Source of the DNA: Pseudomonadota bacterium
GTDB taxonomy: Bacteria; Pseudomonadota; Gammaproteobacteria; Burkholderiales; Thiobacillaceae
NCBI GenBank assembly: GCA_030653935.1
Contig: JAURYL010000027.1
Location: 1-50,031 of the forward strand
DNA: 50,031 bases
Direction of reading: 5' to 3'
Part shown: in pieces, positions 4,379 to 41,325 of the stretch
How the letters are laid out: each line of letters begins with the position of its first letter
How positions within the stretch are numbered: position 1 is the stretch's first letter
Program-made: the position numbers and the translations under genes
Notes under the pieces: model-generated
What the model was told of the DNA's origin: nothing
The model's database searches: none
The model's input: only the letters and a program-made list of their open reading frames with translations

Positions 4379-4468
4379 CCGTCATTCCCGCGAAAGCGGG
4401 AATCCAGTGCATACATCAAACTGCAATCAGGCCCACGACCTGGATTCCCGCTTTCGCGGGAATGACGG
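4379..4468. repeat. dRS3-like inverted repeat pair
   Basis: Two 29-bp arms (4379-4407 and 4440-4468) are perfect reverse complements separated by 32 nt. Each arm contains the core ATTCCCGCGAAAGCGGGAAT, itself a palindrome that matches the dRS3 pattern of Neisseria (ATTCCC-N8-GGGAAT). Related pairs are at 41199-41325 and 43494-43593. The right arm ends one base before the GTG start of cbbO. Confidence 0.9.
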
Positions 4469-21474: not shown

Positions 21475-21494
21475 AGGCCCGCTAGCGGGCCGAT
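21471..21494 (+). repeat. REP unit supplying the stop of the GGDEF gene
   Basis: GTAGAGGCCCGCTAGCGGGC with a GTAG head. The TAG (21472-21474) ends the diguanylate cyclase. The palindrome then fills the 7-nt gap and overlaps the 3' end of cobS on the other strand, so it contributes coding bases to cobS as well. Confidence 0.8.
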
Positions 21495-22201
21495 AGGCCC
21501 ACGACCAGCGTCAGCAACAGCCCACTTTCCACCCACTCCACCCCCGCGCCCAGCGCGTCCCCCGTCATGCCGCCCAGGCGCGCGCGCAGATAGGCGCGCC
21601 AGCCGAGTAGCAACAGCGGAGCGATCAGCAAGGCGGGTACCCAGAGACTCGCCAGGGCCAGCGGCACGGCCCAAGCGCCCATGCCGCCGAAACCGATATT
21701 CCAGGCGAAGCGCTCACCCAAGCCGGGCTTGATCGACGGCAGGCGCGCCCAGAGCAACGGGCCCAGGCGCGCCCAGGCGGGAATCAGGAGCAGCGGCCAG
21801 AACAGCCCCGCTTTGGCCAGCAGCATCAGCAACACCAGCTTGATCAGAAGCTGCGCCACCAGCGCGGTGACGCCGAAGACGCCGAGATGCGGGTCGGCCA
21901 GCACGGTCAGCAGACGATCCTTGTCACCATGCGCCGCGCCCAGCGCATCCGCCAGATCGGCGAGGCCGTCGAGATGCAGCGCCCCGGTCAGGCCGACCCA
22001 GGCCAGCAGACCGAGCAGGGCACCCAACCAGGGGTCGACTTGCGTTCCCAACCACACCGCCGCCGCCAGCAGCGCGCCGAGCAACAGCCCCACCAGGGGA
22101 AACCAGATCGCCGCGCGCGCCAGTTCCTCCGCCTTGAAATTCGCCAAAGTGGGCATCGGCAGCCGGGTAAGAAACTGGAGGGCGAGGATCAGGCCGCGCA
22201 T
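21482..22201 (-). CDS. cobS: Adenosylcobinamide-GDP ribazoletransferase (cobalamin synthase)
   Basis: A 239-residue inner-membrane protein with several hydrophobic helices. It joins adenosylcobinamide-GDP to alpha-ribazole (5'-phosphate) in the last steps of cobalamin synthesis. HLDGLADLADAL (about 77-88), DPHLGVFGV and the late GGMTGDALGAGVEWVE segment are family signatures carrying the metal-binding Asp residues. The ATG at 22201 overlaps the upstream cobC by 13 nt. It is the last gene of the minus-strand cobalamin operon. The extreme C-terminus (VVGLSAR) is encoded partly inside a REP unit. Confidence 0.95.
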   Translation of the reverse strand: MRGLILALQFLTRLPMPTLANFKAEELARAAIWFPLVGLLLGALLAAAVWLGTQVDPWLGALLGLLAWVGLTGALHLDGLADLADALGAAHGDKDRLLTVLADPHLGVFGVTALVAQLLIKLVLLMLLAKAGLFWPLLLIPAWARLGPLLWARLPSIKPGLGERFAWNIGFGGMGAWAVPLALASLWVPALLIAPLLLLGWRAYLRARLGGMTGDALGAGVEWVESGLLLTLVVGLSAR

Positions 22202-22845
22202 GCGTTCAACGACAACAATATCGGCGCCTCGCCGGCCAGGAGAGAAATCTGGAAATGCGCGGCTTCCGGCAGGGCGATCCGGTAAACATGGGAAGCGGGC
22301 AGGCCGATCAGTTCGGTCAGCAGCGCGCGCATGACGCCGGCATGGGTCACCAGCAGGTATCGGCCGCCTCGCGCATCGGCCAGCCAGGCCTCCCAGCCCG
22401 CGCGGACACGGTCGCGTAGTTCCATCAGATTTTCACCCCCGGGCGCCGCCACCTTTCCTGCGGAGGATCGGAACAGTTGATGTTCGACTGGGTTGAGCAG
22501 TGCCGCTTCCTCCGGAGTCAGGCCTTCCCAGTCGCCGAAGGCGATTTCCTGGAAAGCCGGGGACAGGCGCAGCGGCACGCCGTGGCGTTCGGCCAGATGC
22601 CGCGCGAACACCTGGCAGCGTTGCAGCGGCGAACTGGCGACCTGTAGGAGCGGACCGTGTCCGCGATAACCCGCGTCAATATCGCGGACGCGGTCCGCTC
22701 CTACAGTGGCCCGCGTCGCCGCCTCCATCTGGCTCCAGCCGAGTTCGGACAAGGGGTCGTCCTGGCGCCCGCGATAGATGAATGGCCGCCCCTCGACGGC
22801 GCCGTGGCGCAGCACGGTGACAACGGTGGCGCCTTCAATTCCCAC
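22189..22845 (-). CDS. cobC: Alpha-ribazole phosphatase with in-frame REP insertion
   Basis: A 218-residue histidine phosphatase. The RHG motif at 13-15 carries the phosphohistidine, and SSPLQRC (71-77), the Glu of FGDWEG and THAG supply the other catalytic residues. It removes phosphate from alpha-ribazole 5'-phosphate or the cobalamin 5'-phosphate. Between [14 protein letters not shown] and VASSPLQ, residues about 47-68 are encoded entirely by a REP pair (22642-22706). This segment is absent from typical family members, which have a short link there. The catalytic motifs on both sides are intact, so the insertion has kept the frame. The start ATG at 22845 overlaps cobT by 11 nt. Confidence 0.93.
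22642..22706. repeat. REP pair inside cobC
   Basis: 26-bp arms at 22642-22667 and 22681-22706 with one G-T mismatch, separated by 13 nt. The heads read CTGTAGGAGCGGACC in both directions. The element lies wholly within the cobC frame and is translated. Confidence 0.95.
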
Positions 22846-23929
22846 CGCTTACTCCCGCTTCCGCGAACGTCGCCATACCGCCATGCAGTTCACAAGCCAG
22901 GCGCAGCAGCGGCAACGCCGTTGCCGCGCCACTGCCCTCGCCCAGGCGCATCTCTAGGCGCAGCAGCGGCTCCGCGTCCAGAGCGGCGAGCAGGCGGGCA
23001 TGGCCGGGTTCCGCCGAGGCGTGCGCGAACAACAGCCAGTCACGCACACCGGGATTCATCCGACAGGCCGCCAGGGCGGCGGCGGTGGTGATGAAACCGT
23101 CCACCAGCACCGGCAAGCCCAGTTGCGCGCAGGCGATATAAGCACCCGACAACGCCGCGATCTCGAAGCCGCCCAGGCAGCGCAGCGCGGCATGGGCGAG
23201 GTCTACAGTTCCCCCCTTTCCCAAAGGGGGGTTAGGGGGGATTTGTTCGGTTTTGGTGAAACCATGCAGCGCCAGCGCCTTGTCGATTACCGCCGCCTTG
23301 TGGCTCACCCCGCCGCTATCCAGCCCGGTGCCCGGCCCCGCCAGTTCCCCGCCCGGCAAACCCAGCAACGCGCAGGCCAGAGCCGCCGCTGACGTGGTGT
23401 TGCCGATGCCCATCTCGCCGCCGATGAACAGGTCGCAGCCGTGGGTGATCGAGCGCTTCACCGTGCTGTGGCCCAGGTCCAGGCAATGCACCAGTTGCGC
23501 CTCGCTCATCGCCGGGCCTAGCGTGAAGTTGGCGCTGCCGTCACCGGCCTTGGCCCAGAGCACGCCGGGCAGTTGCGCCTTCGCCAGGGTGCCGGCATCC
23601 ACCACTTCGAGATGGGCGCCGGCCGCGCGCGCCAGCACGGAAATCGCCGCGCCGCCATTCACGAAATTGGCCAGCATCTGCTGCGTGACTTCCTGCGGGA
23701 ACGCCGAAACGCCTTCCGCCACCACGCCGTGGTCACCCGCGAATATCGTGATCCAGGGCTGCTCGATGCGCGGTTTCACCCGGTATTGCATGGCCGCCAG
23801 TTCCACCGCCAACTGTTCCAGACGGCCCAGGCTGCCGGGCGGCTTGGTCAGGTTGTCCTGGCGCAGGCGGGCGACCGCGCGGGCCGATTCATCGAGGGGT
23901 TTGACGGGTTGTTGCCACCAGAGGGCCAT
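22835..23929 (-). CDS. cobT: Nicotinate-nucleotide--dimethylbenzimidazole phosphoribosyltransferase
   Basis: A 364-residue enzyme forming alpha-ribazole 5'-phosphate from DMB and nicotinate mononucleotide. [13 protein letters not shown] near the N-terminus, [29 protein letters not shown] and [10 protein letters not shown] are family signatures. The catalytic Glu lies in the late segment rich in Leu and Glu near [12 protein letters not shown]. Residues about 229-241 ([10 protein letters not shown] and flanks) come from a CCCCCC-TTT repeat inserted between the ALALHGF helix and the LGGFEIAAL motif. The ATG at 23929 is followed by [14 protein letters not shown] and is preferred over an in-frame ATG 29 codons earlier that lies in a REP. 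It works with BluB, CobU and CobS. Confidence 0.95.
23211..23243. repeat. CCCCCCTTT/AAAGGGGGG unit inside cobT
   Basis: CCCCCCTTTCCCAAAGGGGG with a following GTTAGGGGGGATTT tail. The same type of unit occurs at 36645-36842 and about 49930. Here it is translated as part of CobT. Confidence 0.85.
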
Positions 23930-23963
23930 GGGTTTTCCTTGCTTATCAGACGTTGGGCATTGG

Positions 23964-24038
23964 CGTAGGTTGGGCAAAGCGCAGCGTGTCCAACGAACCG
24001 CCGCCATGTTGGGCACGCTGCGCTTTGCCCAACCTACG
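23964..24038. repeat. REP pair between cobT and cobU
   Basis: 31-bp arms at 23964-23994 and 24008-24038 with a single mismatch, headed by CGTAGGTTGGGCAAAGCGCA. The right arm contains the TAG stop of cobU (24034-24036). The hairpin may punctuate the operon transcript. Confidence 0.93.
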
Positions 24039-24630
24039 AATTCACGGATTTCATCGCCAGCGGTAGACCCGCCGCGACAAAAGTAACGGTGTCAGCCAGG
24101 CGGGCGATGTCCTGATTCAGCCAACCGGCTTCGTCGACGAAACGGCGGCTGAGTTCGCCCATCGGAATCACGCCGAGGCCGATTTCATTGGAGACCAGGA
24201 GGATGTCGCCGGCCAATGTCGGCAAGGTGGCGAGCAGGGCGGCGCGTTCCCGCGCGAACACCGCCTCGCCGGCTTCCAGCAGATTCATCAGCCACAGGGT
24301 CAGGCAATCCACCAGCACGCATTGCACGCTGCCGGCGGCCTGGCGTAGCGCCTCGGCCAGATGAATGGGTTCTTCCACGGTGCGCCAGTGGGCCGGGCGT
24401 TCGGCCTGATGCCGGGCGATGCGCGCGGCCATCTCGGCATCGCGCGCCTCGCCGGTGGCGATCACCGTCACCGCCAGGCCGCTACGTTCAGCCAGGTCCT
24501 GCGCATGGCGGCTTTTTCCCGAACGGGCGCCGCCGAGGATCAGGATGAGCTGTAGCGCCGGCGTCCCGCCGGCATCCAAGGCCTGATCAGAAGAACGAAG
24601 CCGGCTGGAAGCCGGCGCTACAGGCTTCAT
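24034..24630 (-). CDS. cobU: Adenosylcobinamide kinase/guanylyltransferase with REP-encoded N-terminus
   Basis: A 198-residue bifunctional enzyme that phosphorylates adenosylcobinamide and transfers GMP to it. The P-loop GGARSGKS is at 33-40, DCLTLWLMN and [10 protein letters not shown] are family motifs, and the guanylated His is expected in the [11 protein letters not shown] segment. The ATG at 24630 overlaps the helicase stop in ATGA, so translation is probably coupled. Normally the P-loop strand begins a few residues after the start; here about 27 extra residues precede it and most are encoded by a REP pair at 24551-24622. The stop TAG comes from another REP. The core enzyme is complete. 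Confidence 0.93.
24551..24622. repeat. REP pair at the 5' end of cobU
   Basis: 23-bp arms at 24551-24573 and 24600-24622 with two mismatches, headed by TGTAGCGCCGGCGTCCCGCC. The 26-nt spacer contains TTCGTTCTTCTGATCAG on the minus strand; a closely similar spacer lies at the 5' end of btuD. Translated as the CobU N-terminus. Confidence 0.93.
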
Positions 24631-27600
24631 TTTCCCGGCAGCGGTGCCAGCAGGGCGCGCAGGTCTTCCTCGCCGAACTTGCTCATCGCCGCCGCGTCCT
24701 CGGACAACACGCCTTCCGCCAGGGCGGCTTTCTTTTCCTGGAGGGCGACGATGCGCTCCTCGATGCTGCCCGCCGCTACCAGTTTGTAGACGAACACCTT
24801 GTTCTTTTGTCCGATGCGGTGGGCGCGGTCGGTGGCCTGGTTTTCCGCCGCCGGGTTCCACCAGGGGTCGAAGTGGATGACGGTATCCGCCGTGGTCAGG
24901 TTGAGGCCGACGCCGCCGGCTTTCAGGCTGATGAGGAACACCGGCACGTCGCCGTCCTGGAAGCGGCCGACGACTTCCTCGCGGTTGGTGGTGTCGCCGG
25001 TGAGGCTGACATGGGCGATGCCGGCCCGGTCCAGTTCCTCGGCGATCAGGGCGAGCATGGTGGTGAATTGGGAGAAGACCAATACCCGCCGGCCTTCCTC
25101 CACCAGTTCCGGCAGCATGTCCATCAGCAGTTCCAGCTTGGCGCGTTCCTTGACCTTGGCCGCCGCCTGGATGGTTTTCAGCAGGCGCGGGTCGCAACAG
25201 ACCTGCCTGAGCTTGAGCAGGGCGTCGAGGATGACGATCTGGCTGCGGTTGAAGCCCTTGCTGGCGATTTCCTCTTGCACCCTGGCGTCCATCGCCGCGC
25301 GCACCGTTTCGTACAGGTCGCGCTGGCCGCCTTGCAGTTCCACGTCGCGCACGATGATGGTTTTCGCCGGCAGTTCTTTCGCCACGTCTTCCTTTTTGCG
25401 CCGCAGGATGAAGGGGGCGATGCGGCGCGCCAGCAGGTCGCGGCGCAACGGGTCGCCGCGCTTTTCGATGGGCGTGCGCCAGGTGGCGGTGAACTGTTTG
25501 CTGTCGCCGAGAAAGCCGGGCAGGAGGAAATCAAACTGCGCCCACAACTCGCCCAGGTGGTTTTCCAGCGGCGTGCCGGTGAGGCAGAGGCGGTGCCGCG
25601 CTTGCAGTCGGCGCACCACGCCGGCGGCGCGAGCCTTGGCGTTCTTCACCGTCTGCGCCTCGTCCAGGATCAGGAAGGCGTAGCCGTGGCGCGCCAGTTC
25701 CTCCTCGTCGCGCCAGAGCAGCGGGTAGGTGGTGAGGCAGACATCGTGTTGCGGAATCAGTGGGAAGGCATCCGCGCGCGCCGGGCCGTGCAGGCTCAAC
25801 ACGCGCAGATCGGGCGCGCACCGCGCGGCTTCGCGTTTCCAGTTGAAGATCAGGGAAGTGGGCAGCACTACCAGGGCCGGCTGGTCGAGGCGGCCGGCCC
25901 GCTTCTCGGCCAGCAGGTGGGCCAGGGTCTGCGCGGTCTTGCCCAGGCCCATGTCATCGGCCAGGATACCGGCCAGATTCTGTTCGCGCAGGAATTGCAG
26001 CCAGGCCAGGCCTTCGCGTTGGTAGGGGCGCAGTTCCAGCTTGAAACCTTCCGGCACCGCCACGGTTTTGATGCCTTGCGCCTGCTTCAGGCGCCGCGCC
26101 ATTTGGAAAATCTCGTCCTCGCCCTTGAATTGCCAACGGGTTTTGTCGGCGAGGAAATCCAGGCGCGGCGCGTCCAGGGCGGAAACCCGCAGTTCGCCGT
26201 CGGCGGGCAGCGCGTCGAACAAGTCGATGAGGGTGGCGGCCAGGGGGGTGATTCGTTCCGCCGGCACCCGCACCCGCTCGCCGGTGGGGGTGTGCAGGAT
26301 CACCGGCGTCCCGTCGGCGATGTTTTTCAACAGCTTCGCGTCCAGCCAGCGGGGTTCGCGGTGGAACAGGTCGGCCAGCAGGGGGGCGAGGCTCAGGCGC
26401 TGGCCTTCCACCAGGATGCCCAGGTCCAGTTTGAACCAGCCGTTGCCTTCCTCTTCCAGGTCGGCCTCCCAACTTTCGGCTTCCAGAACGTGGTGGCGGA
26501 AATCGCGCGGGTACTCCACCACCCAACCGGCGGCGGCCAGACGCGGGGCGAGATCGGCAAAGAAGCGCTGCCAGACGGCTTCGCTCTCCAGGCCCAGCTT
26601 GCCGGTTGGTGTTGCGCTGGCGTAACTGAATGCGCGGACGGGCACCGGGGCGAAGCCGAGTTGGCGCAGTTCTTCCTGCCGCGCGGCTTCCACCGCCAGG
26701 TCCCGGTTGATGCGGACGGCCTGGCCGTCGGCCAGGGTGACGTATTGCTTGCCGTCACCAGGCGTGGTTTCCACACCCTGATCGCCGTAACGGAAGGCGA
26801 GGCTGGCGTAATCGTAGAGGTGGGGCCGGTAATCCTGGCAGGGGGGATAGCCGCGATGCGCGGTCCAGTTGCTGAAGGCGCCGCTGGTCAGTTTCAGCAC
26901 CGGTAGCGGCGGGCCTTCGAGCACGGCGAGGGCGGCGTTTGTCGCCGGTCGCGGCAGCTCCGGCGCCGCCTCGGCCAGCAGTTCCGCCACCACCGGCAGG
27001 TCGCCCAGGCTCAGGGGGGGTAGGTCCAGCAGTCGGCTCAACAGGGCGGTGTGGTCGCCGCACTCCAGCGGCCCGGCCTCGCCGCCGGCGGCGTCCAGAT
27101 ACCAGAGCGGATCGGTGGGCAGCAGGTGGGCGGCGGGCGGATCGGCTTGCAGCGTGGCGAGGGTATGGCCCGCTTGATCGAGGCGCCAGTTGAGGCGGCC
27201 GGGGCGCGCCTCGCCCGGTCGCAGGGGCAGACAATGCCAGTCGGAAAGCGAGTAATTGCGCCCCAGGCTCTCCACCACCCAGGCGCGGCCGCTGGCCGTG
27301 GTCGCCGACAGGATCGCTGCCCCGCTGGCGCCTTCCAGGACATGGTCGTAGCCGTAATATTGTTTGCCGCTCAACCGGCGCAACTGGCGCAGGATGTCGA
27401 GGTCTTCATGCGCCACGAACAGCGGCGGCTCGATCAGGGCGCGCTCGATGTTGTCCCAGCCCTTGCCGGCGGGCTTGCCCTCGCTGACGCGCCCCTTGAA
27501 CAGCACCAACCGTGCGTCGCCTTCCAGCGCGGGCGGCAGAATGAAGTAATGCAGGGCGTCTTTTGACTTGCCCGCCTTGCGCGCGGCGGTGGCCGGCCGC

Positions 27601-27965
27601 AGCGCCGCGCGGGTTTCCTCGGCCCAGGCGAGGATCGTCTTGCTCGGCCGCGCCGGGGTCGTGTCGGGCTGGCCCGGTGAACGACTTGCGAGTGCCGCCA
27701 CCAGCACCGCCACGCAGTGCTTGCAGAACCGCCCCACCGGGCAGGTGCAATTGGCGTCGATCTGGGCGATGCCATTCCCCTGATAAAACGCGATGTGCAC
27801 CGAATAGGGGAGGCGCACCCTGCCTTGCACCTGGGCGATGATTTCCGCCGATTGAACGAGCAGATCGCGCACTCTGTGGCCGTAAGTCTGCGCCTTGCGA
27901 ATGGTGTGGGGATCGAACCAGCGGGCGATGTCGGTCGGGCCGTAGTTTTGTGTGGGGGAGGTCAT
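24627..27965 (-). CDS. SWIM-domain SNF2-family helicase
   Basis: A 1112-residue SF2 ATPase of the SNF2/RapA branch. An N-terminal SWIM zinc finger (Cys73, Cys75, Cys81, His83) is followed by a long region with little homology. The helicase core then carries Walker [13 protein letters not shown], box [31 protein letters not shown] and the arginine-finger motif DRAHRIGQ. Such proteins move along DNA or displace bound proteins. The role here is unknown. The ATG at 27965 overlaps the cobQ stop and its own stop overlaps the cobU start, both as ATGA, so it is built into the cobalamin operon. There is no known cobalamin function for this family, which suggests insertion or recruitment. Confidence 0.93.
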
Positions 27966-29494
27966 GACAGAAGGCGAAGAAGAGTCTGTGTGTCGAGATG
28001 ATATTCGACCGCATCGGCCAGACGGTCGATGGCGGCCTCGCGCAGGGCGTGGATGTCAGGGGCGGGTGATTCGCTGAGGCCCGCCCAGGCCAGCAGCGCA
28101 TCGGCGGCGGCGGGGGTGTCGAAGAGGCCATGCAGATAGGTGCCGGCGACCTGGCCATCGTCCGCGAGGGCGCCATCGGCGCGGCCATCCAGCCAGGCCA
28201 GCGGCCGTTGCAGCGCCGCGCCGCTGCTGACGCCGGCATGGATTTCGTAGCCGGAAACGGGGGCGTCGTCGAACGTCAGCCGCCCCGCCACATTGCGCAA
28301 CTGTTTTTCCGCCGCCAGCGTGGTTTCCATCTCCAGCCAGCCGAAGCCGGCGCTGGAACCGGGGTCGCCCTCGATGCCGAGTGGGTCGTGGATGGCCCGC
28401 CCCAGCATCTGGAAACCGCCGCATATCCCCAGCAGCTTGCCGCCGTAACGCAGATGCTTTTGCAGGTGTGCTTCCCAGCCGCGTTCGCGCAGAAAGGCGA
28501 GGTCGTCGCGCACCGATTTGGAACCGGGCAGGATGATCAGGTCGGCGGGCGGTGGCGTCTCATCGATGCCGACAAAGCGGAAATCCACCCCCGGATGCAG
28601 GCGCAGCGCATCGAAATCGGTGTGGTTGGAAATACGGGGGAGGACGGGAACTACGACGCGCAACAGGCCCCCCTCCCCCCTCGGGGGAGGGGTTGGGGGA
28701 GAGGGAACACGCGTCGAATTGGCCACCGTCGTTCCCTCTCCCCGGCCCTCCCCCGGAGGGGGAGGGAGACAAGCCGGCAACGCATCTTCCGCCTCCAGAT
28801 GCAGCCCGTGCAGATACGGCAGCACGCCCAGCACCGGCTTTCCGGTTTCCTTCTCCAGCCAATCCAGACCACCTTGCAGCAAGGCGATGTCGCCGCGAAA
28901 GCGGTTGATGACGAAGCCCTTGACCCGAGCCCGTTCCGTTTCAGACAGCAGCGCCAGGGTGCCCACGATATGGGCGAAGACGCCACCGCGGTCGATGTCG
29001 GCGATCAGGATTACCGGGCAATCCACCGCTTCGGCAAAGCCCATGTTGGCGATGTCGCCCTCGCGCAGATTGATTTCCGCCGGGCTGCCGGCGCCCTCGA
29101 CGATGACCACCTCGTACTGCCGTGAGAGGCGTTCAAACGACTCCAGCACCGCCGCCCGCGCCACTTGTTTGTAGTCGTGATAAGCCGCCGCTTCCATATT
29201 CGACAAGGCGCGGCCCTGGATGATGACCTGGCAGCCGGTATCGGAATTGGGCTTCAACAACACCGGGTTCATGTCGCTGTGCGGTGCCAGGCCACAGGCT
29301 TGCGCCTGCACTGCCTGGGCGCGGCCGATCTCACCGCCGTCCGCTGTCACCGCACTGTTCAGCGCCATGTTCTGCGGCTTGAACGGCGCCACCTTGACGC
29401 CGCGCTGCTTCAGCCAACGGCCCAGCGCCGTCACCAGCGCGCTTTTGCCGGCGTCGGAGGTACAGCCCTGGACCATCAGACAGCGGGCGGTCAT
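27962..29494 (-). CDS. cobQ: Adenosylcobyric acid synthase with in-frame repeat insertion
   Basis: A 510-residue glutamine-dependent amidase that adds four amide groups to the corrin. The N-terminal dethiobiotin-synthetase-like half contains [14 protein letters not shown] (P-loop) and [12 protein letters not shown]; the C-terminal amidotransferase half has [12 protein letters not shown] with the catalytic Cys, and GTYLHGLFD with the His. Residues about 242-276, between [11 protein letters not shown] and [16 protein letters not shown], are encoded by a C/G-rich palindromic repeat. Related enzymes have a short variable linker there. The ATG at 29494 overlaps the vapC stop as ATGA. No other corrin amidation or ring genes are present, so cobyrinate must come from elsewhere. 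Confidence 0.95.
28666..28770. repeat. C/G-rich inverted repeat inside cobQ
   Basis: Two blocks of the type CCCTCCCCC-x-GGGGGAGGG, one at about 28666-28710 and the inverted one at 28731-28770, face each other around a short spacer. They are translated in frame as Pro/Gly/Glu-rich residues ([11 protein letters not shown] and [12 protein letters not shown]), a pattern known from intragenic repeats in many bacteria. Confidence 0.88.
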
Positions 29495-29907
29495 AGCGGT
29501 GGGTTGACCCAGTTCTCCACCTTCAATCCGGGGTAATCCTTGAAGTCGGTTTCGTTGTTGGTAATCAGCGTGGCGTCCAGGCTGATGGCGTGGGCCGCAA
29601 TGAGCCGGTCGAGCGCATCGCGGCGGCGGTCGCGGACGGCGGCGCGCAAGCGGCCAAAACTCTCGGCGGCGGCTTCGTCGAAGTGTTGTATCGGGATGCG
29701 TTTGATCAGCAGGTTGAGCGCGCTTTCATTTTGGAACCGGGTGTCCGTGACCATTTCCAGGCCGGCGCGCAATTCGGCGTAAGTCACGATCGACATGACG
29801 GCCTCGTCCTGGCCGAGTTGGGTCAGGCGTGCCAGCACCTCGGGCGGATGTGCCTTCATGACGTAGATGCAAATGTTGGTATCCAGCATGTAGGACATCG
29901 CGCTCAT
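29491..29907 (-). CDS. vapC: VapC-type PIN-domain toxin
   Basis: A 138-residue PIN ribonuclease. Acidic active-site residues are visible: [11 protein letters not shown] (Asp9), [23 protein letters not shown] and LITNNETDF. VapC toxins cleave RNA, often initiator tRNA or 23S rRNA. The start ATG at 29907 overlaps the antitoxin stop (ATGA), and its own stop TGA overlaps the cobQ ATG the same way. The cell thus translates an RNase toxin and a cobalamin enzyme from one coupled message. This embedding is unusual; the antitoxin upstream makes the module complete. Confidence 0.92.
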
Positions 29908-30176
29908 TCCTGCCCATCGGCCGGCGCGACTTTGCCGAAATTGCCCCAGTCACGTTCTTTCTGCTCGTGGAATTCGCGGCCTTCCGGCATGAAATCTGGT
30001 GTGAACATGGCGAATATTTCGGCCAGATCCGCCAGGGTTTCTTTTTTCACCGGCCGCACCACCAGGGTGTTGCCTACCTGCTCGATCTCGATTTCCTGCC
30101 CCGCCTCGACGATGGCCAGTTCCTTGGGAATACGCACGGCCAGCGAGTTGCCGCTCTTGAATACACGGGTCAGCAT
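29904..30176 (-). CDS. vapB: VapB-type AbrB/SpoVT-fold antitoxin
   Basis: A 90-residue protein starting MLTRVFKSGNSLAVRIPKEL, the swapped-hairpin AbrB/MazE DNA-binding fold of VapB antitoxins. The C-terminal half (EIFAMFTPDFMPEGREFHEQ) is acidic and aromatic and should bind VapC. The ATG at 30176 follows a GGAG-like sequence; a longer open frame upstream overlaps cobD and is rejected. A near-palindrome TGTATATACGGGATATACA at about 30194-30212 lies just upstream of the start and is a good candidate operator for autoregulation by the VapBC complex. Confidence 0.92.
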   Translation of the reverse strand: MLTRVFKSGNSLAVRIPKELAIVEAGQEIEIEQVGNTLVVRPVKKETLADLAEIFAMFTPDFMPEGREFHEQKERDWGNFGKVAPADGQE

Positions 30177-30193
30177 GTTGCTCTCCAGGGGTT

Positions 30194-30212
30194 GTGTATA
30201 TACGGGATATAC
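30194..30212. promoter_or_regulatory. Candidate VapB operator
   Basis: TGTATAT-ACGGG-ATATACA is a perfect 7-bp inverted repeat 17 nt before the vapB start codon. VapB-type proteins bind such AT-rich palindromes to repress their own operon. Assignment is by position and symmetry. Confidence 0.55.
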
Positions 30213-30231
30213 ATGATCGAATCGAATCTGG

Positions 30232-31296
30232 TCAAGGCGAGATTTTCGCCAGCGCGGCATCCAACCGGGCCCATTCGGACGCCGTTCCCGGCAACCCGAA
30301 ACGCAGGCTGGCGGGGTGCTCGAACAATCGGGTGAGGATGCCGCGCCGTGCCAGGGCGGCGTGAATCTCATTGGCGCGCGGGGTTTCCACGCGCTGAAAC
30401 AAGGCGCTGCCGCCGCTGGGCGGCAGGCCGTGATGCGCCAGAACATCGGCCAGACGCGCAGCGGCCGCGATCAGCTTCGGCCGGGCGGCGTCCTGCCAGG
30501 CGGTATCGCGCAGGGTCAGGGTGGCGATATGGCGCGCGGGGCCGTTCAGCGCCCACGGCCCGAGGAGGTCGTGCAGGCGTTCCAGCAAGGCGGCTTCCGC
30601 CAGCACGAAGCCGACCCGCGCGCCGGCCAGGCCGAAGAACTTGCCCAGCGAGCGCAGCACGATGAGACCGGGCAGATGGGCGTGAGCGGCCAGGCTGAAT
30701 TCCGGCGTGGCGTCCATGAAGGCTTCGTCGATCACCAGCCATCCGCCGCGCGCGGCAAGGCGCTCATGCCAGGCCAGCAGGGTTGCCGGCGCATAGGTCT
30801 GGCCGGTGGGGTTGTTGGGGTGGATGAGGACGAGGACGTCGTAGGAGCGGGCTTGCCCGCGATCAAGGGCGGCTATCGCGGGCAGCGGAGTCGTTGCCGC
30901 TTCAGCGGCTTTACGAATCCGGCGTGCCCCTTGCGGGTGCAAGCCCGCTCCTGCGGGTATGTCCACCACCTCATGCCCCGCCTTCGCCCAGGCATGGGCA
31001 TGTTCCGCGTAGCCCGGTGCCACCACCCCCACCCGGCAGGGGGCGCGCAGCAGCGGCAGGGCCTGGATGGCGGCCTGCGAACCGGCCACGGCGAGCGCGT
31101 GACGTGCGCCGTAATAGGCGCAGGCCGCCTCGCTCAGGCCGTCGTCGTCTTCCGGCAGACGTTGCCAAACCAGCGGCGGCAAGGTTGGAACCGGCCAGCC
31201 GTTCGGGTTGATGCCGGTAGACAAATCCAGCCATTCGGCGAGGGGTATGCCGTATTCGACTGCCGCCCGGCGCAGCCGGCCACCATGTTCAAGCAA
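30232..31296 (-). CDS. cobD: Threonine-phosphate decarboxylase with in-frame REP insertion
   Basis: A 354-residue PLP enzyme (class II aminotransferase fold) making (R)-1-amino-2-propanol phosphate, the linker of the nucleotide loop. [11 protein letters not shown] is the N-terminal signature; LIHPNNPTG (157-165), VIDEAF and the PLP lysine in [15 protein letters not shown] (Lys219) are intact. Between VDIPA and [13 protein letters not shown] about 38 residues (115-152) are encoded by a REP pair; typical members have a short loop there. The start is TTG at 31296, overlapping cbiB by 8 nt; no better start is visible before the conserved N-terminus. It is followed by vapBC. Salmonella naming is used. 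Confidence 0.92.
30841..30954. repeat. REP pair inside cobD
   Basis: Left arm 30841-30863 (GTAGGAGCGGGCTTGCCCGC) and right arm about 30934-30954, whose head is changed to GCAG. The centre (30864-30933) is unrelated to cobD and holds no recognisable feature. The whole element is translated in CobD. Confidence 0.88.
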
Positions 31297-32248
31297 GAAG
31301 GTTCTCCCACAGGAAATTCAGAATGCCAGGTAGGAGCGGGCTTGCCCGCGATAGCTCCCTCCAGGCCAGCGCACCGAGGCCAATCACGGCCAGCCACAGC
31401 AGCACGCCGTGGCGCACCAGGGCCAGCGCGCGTTCGATGTCCGCCGCCTCGGGCGGGTTGCCGACGCCCAGCACCGGGCGTTCATGCCATTCGCCTTGAT
31501 AGCGCGCGCGCCCACCCAGGCGGATGCCCAGCGCGCCGGCACCGGCGGCCATCACCGGGCCGGCATTGGGGCTGTCCCAGGCCGGCGCCTGCTCACGCCA
31601 GCAATCCAGGGCCTGCCGGGTTTTGCCCAAGATTGCGTAGGTGAGCGCGGTGAACCGTGCCGGAACAATGTTGAGCATGTCGTCCAGGTTCGCCGCCGCC
31701 CAGCCGAACTCCAGATAGCGCGGGGTCTTGTAGCCCCAGGTGGCATCCAGCGTGTTGGCGAGGCGGTAGAGGATGGCGCCCGGCGCGCCCGCGACGAGGA
31801 ACCAGAACAGGGCGCCGAAAACGCCGTCACTGCCGTTTTCCAGGGTGGACTCAATGGCGGAAGGGGCGATTTCCAGGGTTTCCGCGTCGCGGCTGACGAT
31901 CCGCGCGGCAGCCGCCCGCGCCGCCGCTTCGTCGCCACGCGCAAGGGCGGCGATGATGGGGCGGACGTGGCCGTGCAGGCTTTTGTGGCCGAGTGCGAAA
32001 TACAAGGCCCAGACAGAAAACCCCAAGCCCCAGACGCCCGGCAGTGCTGCCAGCTCGCTCGCCAGCCAGGTCGGCGGCAGTGTCAGCAGCGCCACGGCGA
32101 ACACCCCGCGCCAGCGATCCGGCACATAAATGCGCCGTTCCAGCCAGGCCGCCAGCCGCCCGAAGCCCACCAGCGGATGCCAGCGGCGCGGCTCGCCCAA
32201 CAGCCAGTCGAGTACTACGGCGGCAAGCATGAGCGGAAAGATCGTCAT
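31289..32248 (-). CDS. cbiB: Adenosylcobinamide-phosphate synthase
   Basis: A 319-residue membrane protein that attaches aminopropanol phosphate to adenosylcobyric acid. [18 protein letters not shown] at the N-terminus, [16 protein letters not shown]-like [10 protein letters not shown] and [18 protein letters not shown] are the family signatures. Several hydrophobic helices span the protein. The ATG at 32248 overlaps the bluB stop by one base, and a longer upstream reading is rejected. The C-terminus (about residues 300-313, [13 protein letters not shown]) is partly encoded by a REP unit at 31330-31352, after the last conserved helix. Partner of cobD, with which it overlaps by 8 nt. Confidence 0.94.
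31330..31352 (+). repeat. REP unit at the 3' end of cbiB
   Basis: GTAGGAGCGGGCTTGCCCGC, identical over its length to the left arm at 30841. It is translated near the CbiB C-terminus. Confidence 0.85.
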
Positions 32249-32919
32249 CAATAGGGAGTCGGCGTGCTGCCCGCGCCCGCCGGCCAGCGGTTTTCGAAAA
32301 GAATGTCCGCCAAAGGCAGGCGCCGGCCCCAGCCGGCATCCTCGAACATCGGGCGCGGGTAGAACGCCGCCACCCGGCCGATGCACAGGATGGCGAGCGG
32401 CCGCGCGCCGGGCGGCAGGCCGAGCAAGGTGGCGACGGCATCCGGCTCGAAGAACGACACCCAGCCCAGGCCGATGCCCTCCGCGCGGGCGGCCAGCCAC
32501 ATGTTCTGGATGGCGCAGCCCAGCGAGGCGATGTCCATCTCCGGCAGGGTGCGGCGGCCGATCAGGTGTTTCTCCCGCCCCGGCATGAGCGTGGCGACCA
32601 GCACCTCGGCGCAATCGCGGATGCCCTCGATCTTCACCTTGCGGAATTCATCGTTGCGCGAAGGCAGCGCCTCCGCCGTGGCGAGGCGTTCCGCATCGAC
32701 ATGGGTGTGCAGCGACTGGCGCAGCGCCGCATCGGTGATGCGGATGAAGCGCCAGGGCTGCATGAACCCGACCGAAGGCGCGAGGTGCGCCGCTTCCACC
32801 AGCCGCTCCAACGCGCCCTCGGGCAGCGGGTCGGGGAGGAAATGGCGCATGTCGCGCCGCTCGCGAAAAACGCGCCAGAGGGCGTCGATCTCGCCCTGGT
32901 TGTAGGCTTCGGCGGGCAT
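32248..32919 (-). CDS. bluB: 5,6-dimethylbenzimidazole synthase
   Basis: A 223-residue flavoprotein of the nitroreductase fold that converts reduced FMN with O2 into DMB, the lower ligand of cobalamin. [15 protein letters not shown] at the N-terminus, [32 protein letters not shown] and [10 protein letters not shown] mark BluB and separate it from ordinary nitroreductases. The ATG at 32919 starts the usual N-terminus. The product is used by CobT further down the operon. A small membrane-protein gene precedes it by 4 nt and a REP lies upstream. Oxygen-dependent DMB synthesis implies an aerobic or microaerobic life style. Confidence 0.95.
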
Positions 32920-32923
32920 GGGT

Positions 32924-33055
32924 TCAGGCCTTCATGCCCGGCATCAGGGTACGCGGGCCATCCGGGTCGGCCTGAGGGCGGGCACGGCGCGCGCGCTGGT
33001 AAAGGGCCAGGGCCAGGCCCAGGGTGGCGATGGTGGCAACAACGGCGATCAACAT
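32924..33055 (-). CDS. Small single-span membrane protein, 43 aa
   Basis: A 43-residue protein starting MLIAVVATIATLGLALALYQ, one membrane helix, then a basic and Pro-rich cytoplasmic tail (RARRARPQADPDGPRTLM). AAGGAG lies at a good distance before the ATG at 33055, so translation is likely; a longer in-frame reading would run through a REP unit and is rejected. The stop is 4 nt before the bluB start, so it is probably the first gene of the bluB-cbiB-cobD transcript. I recognise no family. It could help a membrane complex of the late cobalamin enzymes, but this is inference from position. Confidence 0.6.
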   Translation of the reverse strand: MLIAVVATIATLGLALALYQRARRARPQADPDGPRTLMPGMKA

Positions 33056-33089
33056 GGTCAACACTCCTTCATGGATGAAACGACGAAAT

Positions 33090-33112
33090 GCCGGCGAGAC
33101 GCCGGCGCTACA
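33090..33112 (-). repeat. REP unit upstream of the bluB transcript
   Basis: On the minus strand TGTAGCGCCGGCGTCTCGCC, one arm only. It lies in the leader of the small membrane-protein gene, between the divergent btuF and bluB units. Confidence 0.85.
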
Positions 33113-33191
33113 GGCATTCATGGGTGAAACAAACAAGAGGGGCTTCGACGCCTAAAATGCCGCACACCCTTGACCTTACTGCGAATTCTTC

Positions 33192-34076
33192 ATGACCTTT
33201 CCACACCGCTTCCTGCTGGCAACGATGTTGAGCTGCATCGCCGCCACCGCCCAGGCCGAAATCGTGATCCGCGACGACACCGGCGCGACGCTGCGCCTGC
33301 CCGCCGCCGCCCAGCGCATCGTCAGCCTGGCGCCGCACCTCACGGAAAACCTGTATGCCGCCGGGGCGGGCGAACGCCTGGTCGGGGCGGTGGACTACAG
33401 CGATTTTCCCGAGGCGGCGAATCGCATTCCGCGCGTCGGCGGCTACTCGCGGCCGGATATGGAGGCCATCGTGGCACTCAAGCCCGACCTGGTGCTGACC
33501 TGGCAGAGCGGCAATGCCGATGCCGTCGTCGCCAAACTGAAAGCACTCGGCCTCACCGTCTATCAAGCGCAACCCGACCGCCTGGAAGACATTCCGGCCG
33601 GCATCGAGAACCTCGGGCGTCTGGCCGGCACGGAAGCCGTGGCGAACAAGGCGGCGGCGCATTTCCGCCGGCGCCTTGCGGATTTGCGCGGGCAATACGC
33701 CGGCCGACCCGCCGTGCCGCTGTTCTATCAGGTCTGGCACCGGCCGCTCCTGACCGTGGGCGGCAGCCAGATCATCAGCGATGTGATTCGCCTGTGCGGC
33801 GGCGAAAACGTCTTTGCCGCGCTCCCGTCCAAGGCGCCCGGCGTCAGCATCGAAGCCGTGCTGGCCGCCGACCCGGAAGCCATCGTCGCCAGCGGCATGG
33901 GCCGCGATGCCGTGGTGGGCCTGGAAGACTGGCGTGCCTGGAAGCGGATGAAGGCGACGGCGCGCGGCAATCTGTTTTTTGTGCCGTCCGACCTCATGCA
34001 GCGCCCCACCCCGCGCCTGCTCGACGGCGCTGAACAGCTTTGCCGGTATCTGGAGACGGCGCGCGGGCGACGGTAG
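33192..34076 (+). CDS. btuF: Periplasmic cobalamin-binding protein
   Basis: A 294-residue exported protein (signal peptide about 1-22, ending AQA) with the cluster A-II solute-binding fold. RIVSLAPHLTENLYAAGAGERLVGAVDYSDFP and RVGGYSRPDMEAIVALKPDLVL are the BtuF/FecB signatures; later motifs are GGENVFA and PSDLMQRPTPR. It hands vitamin B12 from the BtuB/TonB route to the BtuCD permease encoded at 34809-36643. It is the only plus-strand gene of the locus, divergent from bluB and separated from btuD by a vapBC pair. The start ATG at 33192 gives a complete signal sequence. Confidence 0.92.
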   Translation: MTFPHRFLLATMLSCIAATAQAEIVIRDDTGATLRLPAAAQRIVSLAPHLTENLYAAGAGERLVGAVDYSDFPEAANRIPRVGGYSRPDMEAIVALKPDLVLTWQSGNADAVVAKLKALGLTVYQAQPDRLEDIPAGIENLGRLAGTEAVANKAAAHFRRRLADLRGQYAGRPAVPLFYQVWHRPLLTVGGSQIISDVIRLCGGENVFAALPSKAPGVSIEAVLAADPEAIVASGMGRDAVVGLEDWRAWKRMKATARGNLFFVPSDLMQRPTPRLLDGAEQLCRYLETARGRR

Positions 34077-34087
34077 AAAACCCCGAT

Positions 34088-34510
34088 TCACGGCGTGCGC
34101 CAGCGCAGCCCCGGATAACGACTGAATCCCCGATCTGTCGTTATCCACTCGCAACCCGCTTCAATCGCCAATGCGGCATGGTAAGCATCGGGAATCAGGT
34201 TGCCTTTGGCGTTTGCCACTTGGCACAGCTTCAGAAAAATATCCCAATGTCGTGCTTGTGGAGACACCACCACGCAATTGGCTTGAGAACGAATGGCCCC
34301 GACAAACTCCAGGGCATCTTCCAGCGCACTGGGGGGGTCGAATATCTTGGGGTGCGTGACAATCCGCAAGAAACCGCTGAGCACCAACTCCGAAACGGCA
34401 AAAGAGGCATCCGAGTTGACCTGGTCTTCCAGCCACTGCCGATACCTGCTGTGGTTTGGCGAGTCCTCGCGGTGGGCATACACCAGGACGTTGACATCAC
34501 ACATCAGCAT
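34088..34510 (-). CDS. vapC: PIN-domain toxin
   Basis: A 140-residue PIN ribonuclease. Asp in MCDVNVLVYAHRED, Glu in VSELVLSGFLRI, Asp in IPDAYHAALA and Asp in WITTDRGFSRYP are the four acidic positions of the active site. It belongs to the TTHA/VapC subgroup with the FSRYPGL C-terminus. The start at 34510 overlaps the antitoxin stop by one base (TAATG); a second ATG two codons later is possible. Its 3' end is 11 nt from btuF and convergent with it. Confidence 0.9.
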   Translation of the reverse strand: MLMCDVNVLVYAHREDSPNHSRYRQWLEDQVNSDASFAVSELVLSGFLRIVTHPKIFDPPSALEDALEFVGAIRSQANCVVVSPQARHWDIFLKLCQVANAKGNLIPDAYHAALAIEAGCEWITTDRGFSRYPGLRWRTP

Positions 34511-34749
34511 TAGCGGGTCTCCATCAAGTCCAGTAGGGCGGCGTTATCGTCCAGATCGACGCCGCGCAGCATGCCGCGCCCATTCACGGTTTTCAGCTTG
34601 ACCTGTTCCGCAGGCGGGCGTTTGGGGCGGGCCAACAGCTTCTCGCGTAACACCTCTTCCAGTAATGCGGTCAGGGTTTTTCCACTCGCCTGTGCGTAAC
34701 GGCGTGCCATTTCGTGCAGGTTGTCATCCAGTTGTATCGTCGTTCTCAT
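34510..34749 (-). CDS. vapB: Ribbon-helix-helix antitoxin
   Basis: A 79-residue protein starting MRTTIQLDDNLHEMARRYAQ, a ribbon-helix-helix DNA-binding fold of the DUF2191/VapB type, with a second half expected to bind the toxin (KTVNGRGMLRGVDLDDN). AGAGGG precedes the ATG at 34749, so it is preferred over a GTG three codons upstream. With the PIN gene it forms a complete VapBC module between btuD and btuF. Confidence 0.9.
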   Translation of the reverse strand: MRTTIQLDDNLHEMARRYAQASGKTLTALLEEVLREKLLARPKRPPAEQVKLKTVNGRGMLRGVDLDDNAALLDLMETR

Positions 34750-34808
34750 GGCGGCCACCCTCTAAAGCATCAATATGCGCATTGTAGATGCGCCAACATC
34801 AAAGCAAA

Positions 34809-35642
34809 TCACTTCGGCATCTCCGGCACAAACCAGCGCCTGGTTTCATCGCGAATTTCTCGCAACGGATGGCCGTAAAGCCGGGACAGCCTGGCCGCGT
34901 CCAGTACCGCCGCACTGGCGCCCAATTCATGTTCGCCCTCGCCATGCAGCAACAGCGCCTGGTCGCTGAAATGCGCGGCCAGATTGATGTCATGCAGCAC
35001 CATCACCAGCGCGGCGGCCTCTTCTCGAACGCGGCGGCTGACCAGTTCCAGCACCGCGATCTGGTGGTTGAGGTCGAGATGCGCCAGCGGCTCATCCAGC
35101 AGATACACCTGGGGTTGCTGTACCAGCAGAGTGGCGAGCGCCACGCGCTGACGTTCACCACCGGAAAGGGTGTGGATCGAACGCGCCGCCAGTTCGGCAA
35201 GACCCACCGCCGCCAGGGCCGCGCGCGCCAAGTGTTCATCCGCAGTACTTTCCCAATCCCAGCGCGACAGATGCGGGTGGCGGCCGATCAGCACGGTTTC
35301 CAGCACGCTGGCGGCAAAGGCATCGCCCTGGTGTTGCGGCAACAGGCCGCGAAGCTGCGCCGCGCGGCGCGGGCCGAGGGCGGCGTAGGTCTGGCCGGAA
35401 AGCATGACTTCACCCGAATCCGGCGCGCGCAAGCCCGCCAGGGTATGCAACAGCGTGGTCTTGCCGACGCCGTTGCGGCCGAGGATGGCGAGTCGGTCGC
35501 CGGGGTGGAGGGCGAGGTTCAATCCGCGCACGACCGCCTTGCCGCCGATGGAAACGGCGAGATCGTGGGTCGCCAGCAGCGGCGTGTAGCGCCGGCGTCC
35601 CGCCGGCTCGTTCGTCTGATCGGATGTACGAGGCCCGCTCAT
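34809..35642 (-). CDS. btuD: Cobalamin ABC transporter ATP-binding protein with REP-encoded N-terminus
   Basis: A 277-residue ABC ATPase of the BtuD/FhuC/HmuV group. Walker A GRNGVGKTT (55-63), the Q-loop LLPQHQG, signature LSGGERQRVALA, Walker B VYLLDEP and the switch His in VLHDINLAAHF are all present. The protein powers BtuC-mediated B12 uptake from the periplasm. The ATG at 35642 overlaps the btuC stop (ATGA). Residues about 4-20 (RTSDQTNEPAGRRRYTP), before the first strand, are encoded by a REP arm and its spacer; the family normally starts near the LLATHDLAVSIGG strand. The start-codon overlap is preserved. Confidence 0.92.
   Translation of the reverse strand: MSGPRTSDQTNEPAGRRRYTPLLATHDLAVSIGGKAVVRGLNLALHPGDRLAILGRNGVGKTTLLHTLAGLRAPDSGEVMLSGQTYAALGPRRAAQLRGLLPQHQGDAFAASVLETVLIGRHPHLSRWDWESTADEHLARAALAAVGLAELAARSIHTLSGGERQRVALATLLVQQPQVYLLDEPLAHLDLNHQIAVLELVSRRVREEAAALVMVLHDINLAAHFSDQALLLHGEGEHELGASAAVLDAARLSRLYGHPLREIRDETRRWFVPEMPK
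35585..35607 (+). repeat. REP arm at the 5' end of btuD
   Basis: TGTAGCGCCGGCGTCCCGCC, identical to the left arm at 24551. It is followed by TCGTTCGTCTGATCGG, similar to the spacer of the cobU element. The second arm is missing; the similarity ends just before the btuD start codon. Confidence 0.88.
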
Positions 35643-36643
35643 GCCTGCTCCACCTTCGGCGCACGGGCAAGAAGAAACAGAAACACCGGCACGCCGATCA
35701 ACGCCGTCAGCACGCCCACCGGCAGTTGCTGCGGCGCAATGATGCTGCGCGCCAGGGTGTCGGCCAGGGTCAGCAGCGCGCCGCCGGCAAGCGTCGCCGC
35801 CGGCAGCAGCAGGCGCTGATCGTTGCCCAGGGCGAGGCGCACCAGATGCGGCACCACCAGGCCGACAAAGCCGACGCTGCCGACAGTGGTGACGGCGGCG
35901 GCGGTGAGCAGCGAGGCGAGGAAATACAGCACCAGACGCAGCCGGCCGACGTTCGCGCCCAGGGTGCCGGCGAGCAAGGGGCCGCGCGTGAGCAGGTTGA
36001 GTTCGCGCGCGAAGAACATCGCAACCAGCAAGCCGGCCAGCAGGATCAGCAGTACGAAGATCGGATTCCCCGCTTGCGAGGCATCGCCCATCAACCAGAA
36101 CAACATGCCGCGCAACTGCTGGTCCGGCGCCAGCGAAAGCATCAAGGCCACCGCCGCACCGCAGCCGGCGGCGACGATGACACCGGTGAGCAGCAACCGG
36201 GTCTGCGTCCACGAACCGTCTCCGCGCGCCAGGCCGAAGACCAGCCACATCGCCGCCAACGCGCCAACGAACGCGGCGGCCTCCAGGCCGAAGCCGGCGC
36301 TGACGCCCAGCAGCATCGCCGCCAGCGCCCCCACCGCCGCACCCCCGGAAATACCCAACACATAGGGGTCGGCCAACGGATTGCGCAACAACACCTGCAT
36401 CAACGCCCCGGCCAGCGCCAGCAGGCCGCCGCAGGCGAAGGCGGACAGCGCGCGCGGCAATCTGAGGCTGCGCACCACGTCAACGGCCATGCCTTCACCG
36501 CCGCCTTTGCCTTCTCCGAGCAGCGCCGCCCACACCTCGCCCGGCGCCAGCGCGACACTGCCCGCCGCCAGCGCCAGCAGCAGACTGGCCAGCGCCGCGA
36601 CGGCGAGCAGGGCAATGACGAGCAGGGCGCGGGAGCGGTTCAT
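35639..36643 (-). CDS. btuC: Cobalamin ABC transporter permease
   Basis: A 334-residue inner-membrane permease of the BtuC/FecCD family, with about ten hydrophobic segments. RNPLADPYVLGISGGAAVGA, GDASQAGNP and GFVGLVVPHLVRLALGNDQR (the cytoplasmic L-loop that contacts BtuD) are family signatures, as is the late ARSIIAPQQLPVGVLTALIG. The ATG at 36643 gives MNRSRALLVIALLA; the longer upstream reading is repeat sequence and is rejected. btuD overlaps its stop by 4 nt. Transport substrate is inferred as cobalamin from btuF, btuB and the locus. Confidence 0.93.
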   Translation of the reverse strand: MNRSRALLVIALLAVAALASLLLALAAGSVALAPGEVWAALLGEGKGGGEGMAVDVVRSLRLPRALSAFACGGLLALAGALMQVLLRNPLADPYVLGISGGAAVGALAAMLLGVSAGFGLEAAAFVGALAAMWLVFGLARGDGSWTQTRLLLTGVIVAAGCGAAVALMLSLAPDQQLRGMLFWLMGDASQAGNPIFVLLILLAGLLVAMFFARELNLLTRGPLLAGTLGANVGRLRLVLYFLASLLTAAAVTTVGSVGFVGLVVPHLVRLALGNDQRLLLPAATLAGGALLTLADTLARSIIAPQQLPVGVLTALIGVPVFLFLLARAPKVEQA

Positions 36644-36644
36644 G

Positions 36645-36842
36645 CACTCCCCCCTTTCCCAAAGGGGGGCAGGGGGGATTTTCGGACGCCCACGCGCGCG
36701 CAACCCGTGAAGAAATCCCCCTGAATCCCCCTTTGATAAAGGGGGAAGCCACTCTCCCCAGCCCCTTCACTCATATCACCAGCGAACGCGGAAAGAGCCT
36801 TTGGGAAAGGGGGGTGAGTTGCGCGGTGGGGTCCGTCGCAAG
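36645..36842. repeat. Cluster of three CCCCC-TTT/AAA-GGGGG repeats
   Basis: The 200-nt spacer between cobO and btuC consists mostly of this family: CCCCCCTTTCCCAAAGGGGG at about 36649, an inverted copy built on CCCCCTTTGATAAAGGGGG at about 36728, and a partial GGGAAAGGGGGG at about 36807. They may have arisen by insertion into one another. No gene is supported here. Confidence 0.85.
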
Positions 36843-41198: not shown

Positions 41199-41325
41199 CC
41201 GTCATTCCCGCGCAGGCGGGAATCCAGTGAACAATTCTGGTGGTGGCTTGATAACGACCTAGCCCGGATATTGCGTGAATTCGCGTGATATCCGGGCTAG
41301 ATTCCCGCCTGCGCGGGAATGACGG
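41199..41325. repeat. dRS3-like pair with a nested REP
   Basis: Outer arms 41199-41227 and about 41298-41325 carry ATTCCCGCGCAGGCGGGAAT. Inside lies a second inverted repeat, TAGCCCGGATAT at 41260-41271 and its complement at 41288-41299, which resembles the GTAGCCCGGATGC REP family. The two elements share a few bases at the right junction. Confidence 0.88.

Follow-up and report, generated by a model that had tools for sequence, protein, structure and literature searches.

We analyzed a 50,031-nucleotide stretch of DNA (hereafter the window) from a Pseudomonadota bacterium of the Thiobacillaceae (GenBank assembly GCA_030653935.1, contig JAURYL010000027.1, positions 1 to 50,031), which is contig C76 of a 3.8-Mb genome in 135 contigs. 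The window carries a group of cobalamin genes in which short palindromic repeats are translated, and two of the palindrome families also flank genes for DUF559 nucleases. Pfam matches identified CobS, a histidine phosphatase (cobC), CobT, CobU, CobQ, a class I/II aminotransferase (cobD) and CbiB, and the names btuD and btuC are those of an earlier, sequence-only reading of this DNA. The best named matches of the window's CobQ are from Gallionellaceae metagenome-assembled genomes (MAGs). The sequence-only reading had claimed translated repeat DNA in seven genes (cobC, cobT, cobU, cobQ, cobD, cbiB and btuD), and we found it in all seven, in the frames then given. The repeat is internal, with coding sequence on both sides, in cobC, cobT, cobQ and cobD, and terminal in cobU, btuD and cbiB.

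All seven repeats are read from the minus strand. In cobC (22189–22845), a GTAG-headed repetitive extragenic palindromic (REP) dimer (GTAGGAGCGGACC..TCCGCGAT) at 22642–22706 is translated in frame as about 20 residues. The cobT gene (22835–23929, PF02277) contains a single CCCCCCTTT-NNN-AAAGGGGGG unit with a TTAGGGGGGATTT tail, in frame at 23209–23248, in a loop at about residues 223–240 that is a recurrent insertion site. In the predicted CobT structure (mean predicted local distance difference test score, pLDDT, 94), this insert forms a loop of pLDDT 55–75 flanked by helices 205–221 and 241–252. A second recurrent insertion site is the linker after LEAEDALP in cobQ (27962–29494, PF01656 and PF07685), where two inverted GGGGAGGG units with a spacer of about 30 nt lie in frame at 28669–28766. 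A pair of GTAGGAGCGGGCTTGCCCGCGAT-type REPs is in frame in cobD (30232–31296) at 30840–30960. As for the terminal repeats, a GTAGCGCCGGCGTC REP dimer at 24550–24624 makes up the N-terminus of cobU (24034–24630), one GTAGCGCCGGCGTC REP arm at 35582–35607 lies in the N-terminus of btuD (34809–35642), and one GTAG REP arm at 31330–31353 is part of the C-terminus of cbiB (31289–32248). Because no in-frame ATG, GTG or TTG occurs between repeat and conserved core in cobU and btuD, the repeat-encoded residues of both are very probably translated; the gene finder's cobU start is a TTG at 24579, inside the repeat. The repeats belong to several unrelated families, as had been proposed, with GTAG REPs standing apart from CCCCCTTT in cobT and GGGGAGGG in cobQ. 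The GTAG head at the palindrome end is absent from the cobT units and from the cobQ units (CCCTCNCCC-N-GGGNGAGGG). An inverted CCCCCTTT dimer also lies, with no strand assigned, in the intergenic gap between btuC and cobO (36648–36748). In the genome sample described below, seven of nine spacings of less than 300 nt between neighboring palindromes measure 76–78 nt. A pattern scan of the window, in which adk, kdsB, folD, hppA and pfp were not individually checked, found internal repeats in cobC, cobT, cobQ and cobD only.

Genes from 19 loci were aligned, with up to 17 rows beside the window's own (below, G numbers denote genomes, G000 being that of the window, and L numbers loci). A cobT match was present in 22 of the 61 genomes compared, the window genome included. 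Same-genus orthologues without repeats confirm that the segments are insertions and set their edges. The cobC insert is present in two of 16 rows (G000 and G006); G022 has a different insert at the same point and the other 13 rows have none. The cobD insert occurs at the window's position in two of nine rows (G000 and G011) and is missing from the other seven, and the cobD genes of G011 and G013 (L243 and L251) carry further repeat-like inserts of AAPRGGAQPALGRPGG type at other positions, with another near the C-terminus in G013. The N-terminal extension of cobU has a counterpart in G019, while other relatives begin near the LILGG core. A peptide like that of the cbiB repeat arm is found in G011 and G022, and the btuD N-terminus has other repeat-like extensions in G019 and G013.

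The cobT and cobQ sites have been hit repeatedly. The cobT loop, after ALALHGF, holds one CCCCCTTT unit in G000 and two inverted ones in G019 and G006. Units of GGGGAGGG type occupy it in G007, in G012 and in the named Gallionella MAG DP16D, and in G013 it contains a whole DUF559 element of the GGGGAGGG family. In G012 (L252) there are two GGGGAGGG dimer copies, and host-like sequence (..HGF) is repeated between them. The loop is free of repeats in G002 and in Gallionellaceae STA_24, and the remaining rows have short or unassigned loops. In the cobQ linker, GGGGAGGG-encoded peptides are found in G000, G019, G007 and G013, and partly in G012 and some named MAGs, while G022 and G011 have other repeat-like inserts. 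The peptide in G011 (L243; RHSRAGGNP...) is apparently encoded by the CATTCCCGCG palindrome family, which is intergenic in the window (4381–4466, 41201–41323 and 43496–43591).

The GTAG-headed part of this pattern is already known biology. The repeats of cobC, cobD, cobU, cbiB and btuD are GTAG-headed palindromes, often in inverted doublets. They share the features described for REP doublets forming hairpins (REPINs) and REP-associated tyrosine transposases (RAYTs), namely high-copy inverted palindrome doublets, a single gene type bordered by those palindromes, and occasional copies in open reading frames (PMC3116915, PMC3733652). The latter source places GTAG REPs inside open reading frames of several species and notes that GTAG ends often provide a TAG stop (PMC3733652). 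Palindromes also touch two cob gene ends of the window: the TAG stop of cobU comes from a GTAG repeat (23964–24038), and the end of cobS overlaps with a GGCCCGC repeat (21471–21491). The window genome has five matches to the Y1 transposase (PF01797, Y1_Tnp). The cobC-type REP flanks one of these genes (G000:C100:7859-8092) as an inverted repeat of score 26, and is the only one of the GTAG types found to flank a Y1 transposase in this way. Among the other four loci, an inverted repeat of the related GTAGGAGCG type (score 27) is present at one and a single cobU-type unit at another, while the remaining two have none of the listed GTAG families.

The first lead to the origin of the other two families came from the cobT search, which returned open frames longer than cobT should be. 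In G013 the extra DNA encodes a complete DUF559 (PF04480) domain with GGGGAGGG repeats on either side. This whole element and the single unit in the cobT of G007 have their right-hand junction in common, and the pair is the strongest single case for a derivation of bare palindromes from elements. PF04480 matches, weak ones included, were found in 32 of the 61 relatives, at least 129 of 300 genomes of the order and at least 108 of 299 of the phylum. From the relatives and the order we collected 136 DUF559 loci, comprising most of the listed matches below about 1e-27 and some weaker ones (at least one, G306:C53, was missed), and a home-made profile placed the domain in 132 of them. Weak matches in frames of at least 1500 aa were left out; a DUF559-like domain occurs in very long frames (about 1500–2400 aa, PF04480 weaker than about 1e-6) in many genomes, apparently as an ordinary domain architecture unrelated to repeats.

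For 124 loci (score >80, non-identical domains, 220 nt on both sides), inverted repeats across the nuclease gene were scored. They were found in 85 loci, whereas the rate was 0.5% among 744 position pairs taken from these loci, and four of 216 control genes of 270–660 nt from the repeat-rich window genome had one. Of the DUF559 flanks, 68% upstream and 72% downstream contained palindromes of score 9 or more (6.4% of 992 control windows). In the loci inspected, the palindrome units are inverted at the two ends of the element, and at many loci repeat-encoded peptides of GEG or KGG type lie beside the domain. The cobQ insert of the window (unit, spacer, inverted unit) is arranged like the ends of L106, L110 and L116 with the coding part missing, as in a miniature inverted-repeat transposable element (MITE) of a DUF559 element; no DUF559 element of the GGGGAGGG family was found in the window genome itself. 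In addition, around the FYRQ-type DUF559 gene of the window genome and several relatives (L125, L126, L127, L236 and L237), CCCCCTTT units recur every 905–930 nt or so. The DUF559 product has a Vsr-like fold and a conserved acidic/His active site of the EDxHD kind, with structure matches to 3hrl, the homing endonuclease I-Bth0305I (PDB 3r3p) and Vsr. Further structure matches, to mitoribosomal proteins, TnsA, Holliday-junction resolvases and others, were ascribed to general fold similarity.

At 23 loci the DUF559 domain lies within the reading frame of a host protein, each named by Pfam. The hosts are YgiQ (L106, L109, L119, L153 and L179), CobT (L110), AsnB (L114 and L171), MmeI-like (L116), Eco57I-like (L118) and LipB-like (L182) proteins, HsdM (L191 and L195), MetRS (L202, L205, L206 and L216), MnmG (L209 and L217), a HODM-like protein (L218), RecG (L232 and L233) and HsdR (L240). 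Host domains are present on both sides of the nuclease in 17 of the 23 and on one side only in six, where the other side has no Pfam match (L118, L191, L195, L218 and L233) or the contig ends (L153); L195 also ends close to a contig end. The sites in YgiQ, MetRS and CobT are occupied repeatedly. L212, where a LipB-like protein has the nuclease in frame at its C-terminus, was not counted, and L111, L115, L117, L166 and L186 were not accepted as hosts, being long open frames alone, with a spurious G+C-rich look, or unclear. All 23 embedded domains fall in one group of 28 in the DUF559 tree, and the CobT copy groups with YgiQ copies (Shimodaira–Hasegawa-like approximate likelihood ratio support 99). 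Of the embedded domains, 22 of 23 keep an intact active-site motif, as do 95 of 106 others. Only two of the 23 have an ATG in the 20 codons that precede the domain, compared with 71 of the 106. In G263, G124, G119 and G173 the interrupted MetRS is the sole full-length PF09334 match, and a missed second copy is unlikely because these genomes are 95–99% complete. Pfam matches of the 23 proteins (E up to 1e-5) include no Hint or intein family, which counts against an intein reading. Misassembly as the cause of the fusions was rejected on the grounds of the number of loci, the many genomes, the repeated hosts and the resumption of host domains in 17.

We think it likely that the palindromes are mobile DNA from two mobilizing systems, that CCCCCTTT and GGGGAGGG are non-autonomous derivatives of DUF559 elements, and that one nuclease lineage has become embedded in host proteins. 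Two or more systems appear to be at work: the cobC-type GTAG REP flanks a Y1 transposase, and CCCCCTTT and GGGGAGGG go with DUF559 genes. Short mobile palindromes would land in loops, linkers or ends of the cobalamin proteins, and the survivors would be those that keep the frame. The GTAG REPs of cobC, cobD, cobU, cbiB and btuD belong to the class that RAYT tyrosine transposases serve. The parent element of the other two families would consist of inverted palindrome units around a gene for a DUF559 (EDxHD/Vsr-like) nuclease, which may cut at or near the target or process palindrome hairpins. Repair would then copy the palindrome-bounded DNA into the cut site, and loss of the nuclease gene would leave dimers or single palindromes. 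One DUF559 lineage, mostly without a start codon of its own, would be translated unspliced as part of the host protein in conserved genes. We infer that DUF559 moves the palindromes and that bare palindromes come from elements; the embedded nucleases are predicted to be translated with their hosts and active.

Palindrome family goes with nuclease clade (odds ratio 276). By motif, 125 of 129 nucleases were typed, some loosely, as FYRQ-like or RRQ-like, and four were unclassified. Palindromes of the CCCCCTTT family flank 24 of 32 FYRQ-like and one of 93 RRQ-like nucleases, and those of the GGGGAGGG family flank 64 of 93 RRQ-like and four of 32 FYRQ-like nucleases. On a tree of 124 domains with score >100, built from a short alignment and with many unresolved forks, the CCCCCTTT label needs three changes compared with 23.8 after shuffling. 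The GGGGAGGG and "other" labels are more scattered (13 changes each, versus 40.7 and 26.2). With the 29 domains carrying neither palindrome label removed, two changes suffice for the 95 labeled domains. Palindrome copy number per genome correlates with the matching nuclease (0.72 and 0.56; clade counts leave out matches weaker than about 1e-20), and the six genomes richest in CCCCCTTT (494, 305, 223, 164, 141 and 59 copies) among the 61 all have the FYRQ type.

Several observations weigh against the nuclease as mover and the embedded lineage. No strong inverted repeat was found at 39 of the 124 loci, and the palindrome–DUF559 link is weaker outside the order, since in the phylum set (27 new loci of 28) an inverted repeat was found in just 13 of 27, against four of 168 controls. 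No clear target-site duplication was seen in a by-eye comparison of the cobT junctions. The window genome has 40 GGGGAGGG matches and no strong RRQ-type gene, as is also the case for G006 (79), G050 (52), G007 (43) and G022 (33), and G041 and G046 have an RRQ-type gene yet no GGGGAGGG match. In G056, 12 of the 14 matches are found no more than some 3 kb away from the element. The GGGGAGGG family also goes with the FYRQ type (P-value = 0.002 over all, 0.054 within genus), and the palindrome counts of both families rise weakly with Y1_Tnp number (Spearman 0.33 and 0.36), so part of the copy-number correlation may be general repeat richness; the P-values are too small because the genomes are related. 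When GTG and TTG are also allowed, a start codon lies within 20 codons upstream of nine of the 23 embedded domains (88 of 106 others). The Y1_Tnp correlations and the GGGGAGGG-rich genomes without an RRQ-type gene are what would be expected if the DUF559 genes were passengers, with RAYTs, repeat recombination or replication slippage spreading all palindromes and repeats flanking the nuclease by chance. We consider this rather unlikely, for the nuclease clade predicts the palindrome family, the matching nuclease correlates better with copy number than Y1_Tnp does, and the catalytic motif is retained in nearly all embedded copies.

The sequence-only reading had also seen an invasion of one operon. 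To set the window against its genome, 40 further stretches (798 kb) were sampled and scanned together with it, using patterns for nine repeat families and reversed-sequence controls; a family-agnostic search by high-copy 13-mers had been swamped by G+C-rich codon words. The scan gave 131 clusters, of which 24 were gene-internal (four in cob genes), 23 at gene edges and 84 intergenic. The loose GTAGGAGCGG pattern gave 17 matches in the reversed-sequence control and 19 in the real sequence, and the 20 internal matches outside the window were therefore judged singly. Five were dropped (a native motif of CysRS, a GGDEF stretch and three GTAGGAGCGG matches, native or chance) and 15 judged real, an approximate number given a non-exhaustive pattern list, some single units with a mismatch and one frame without a Pfam match. 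Beside that frame, the hosts are an aminotransferase, a heptosyltransferase, a bifunctional penicillin-binding protein, a P-type ATPase, Tex, MutL, two DNA methyltransferases, a RecB-like helicase, a DUF748 protein, a secretin, ValRS, IleRS and a TPS-domain protein. The cob stretch is denser in internal repeats but is not their only place, and an invasion specific to this operon is only partly supported.

The excess is four internal repeats in 11.1 kb against 0.21 expected (about 19-fold; P-value = 7e-5 for that place), or, counted by gene, four among 12 cob/btu genes compared with roughly 15 among 507 others (P-value = 5e-4). These figures, the occupation of the cobT and cobQ loops in many relatives and the further cobD inserts of G011 and G013 would suit an operon that is itself a preferred target, for example through strong transcription or single-strand exposure attracting REP transposition. 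However, the region was chosen post hoc, and the chance of such an 11-kb stretch anywhere in the genome is 0.076. Since the occupied loops are variable linkers, their repeated use is explained by tolerance. Because different families hit the same cobT and cobQ loops in different species, loop tolerance rather than operon targeting is the simplest reading, and a targeted operon seems unlikely to us.

The cob region has other unusual occupants. A gene for an SNF2-family helicase (24627–27965), an unusual passenger in a cob operon, lies on the same strand between cobU and cobQ, and its stop overlaps the ATG of the longest cobU frame. A pair named from sequence reading alone as a PIN-domain-like toxin and an AbrB-like antitoxin (29491–30176) lies between cobQ and cobD, and a similar pair seems to be present at about 34088–34750, beside btuF.

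In a further reading, hosts would benefit from fusion to DUF559 as a nuclease of DNA repair (Vsr-like) or restriction, and the repeats would be incidental; we consider this very improbable. In its favor, the Caulobacter DUF559 protein VsrA is proposed as a mismatch-repair nuclease acting in very short patch repair (PMC12907096), which also counts against the nuclease as mover, and some hosts are restriction-modification proteins (HsdR, HsdM, MmeI-like and Eco57I-like). Against it, many hosts have no link to DNA (CobT, YgiQ, MetRS, MnmG, AsnB and LipB), host domains are split in mid-domain, and one nuclease lineage is found in both CobT and YgiQ.

The nearest known systems each differ from the case described here. 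The comparison with Rickettsia palindromic elements drawn in the sequence-only reading is apt, the inserts being palindromic, in frame and absent from orthologues. Those elements also place palindromic DNA in frame in unrelated genes (PMC10969869, PMC3733652), but here the bacteria are different, several families are involved, the units are shorter and DUF559 is a candidate autonomous partner. Where REPINs have a GTAG head and border a Y1 transposase gene, the CCCCCTTT and GGGGAGGG families lack that head and border a gene for a DUF559 nuclease. In contrast to I-Bth0305I, the DUF559 genes are flanked by inverted palindromes and the embedded lineage is in frame with its host; no intein domain was found around DUF559, and introns were not searched for. 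From Vsr and Caulobacter VsrA, the difference is the repair role proposed there (PMC12907096). Among the works listed by searches of the open-licence PMC library, none was seen to link DUF559 with palindromic repeats or to print any of six GEG/KGG peptides.

To our knowledge, RAYTs are the only movers proposed for such palindromes, and this for GTAG REPs. We lean, with modest confidence, toward a broader picture in which DUF559 nucleases would be the movers of a widespread, hitherto orphan class of G/C-rich palindromes of Pseudomonadota, as a nuclease-based counterpart of RAYTs and REPINs, and in which one lineage would live in frame in essential or conserved proteins without intron or intein, read from the host start codon, as a third lifestyle of homing-type endonucleases; the repeats of cobT and cobQ would then be footprints. 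With a nuclease gene that the same palindromes flank and that matches them in clade and copy number, the origin of the non-GTAG families becomes testable. An active-looking nuclease in the sole MetRS found in each of four genomes would show that selfish nucleases can persist in conserved proteins by way of tolerant loops and not by splicing. Nucleases embedded in this manner would also explain odd fusions of endonuclease domains and the repeat-encoded GEG/KGG peptides in annotated proteins.

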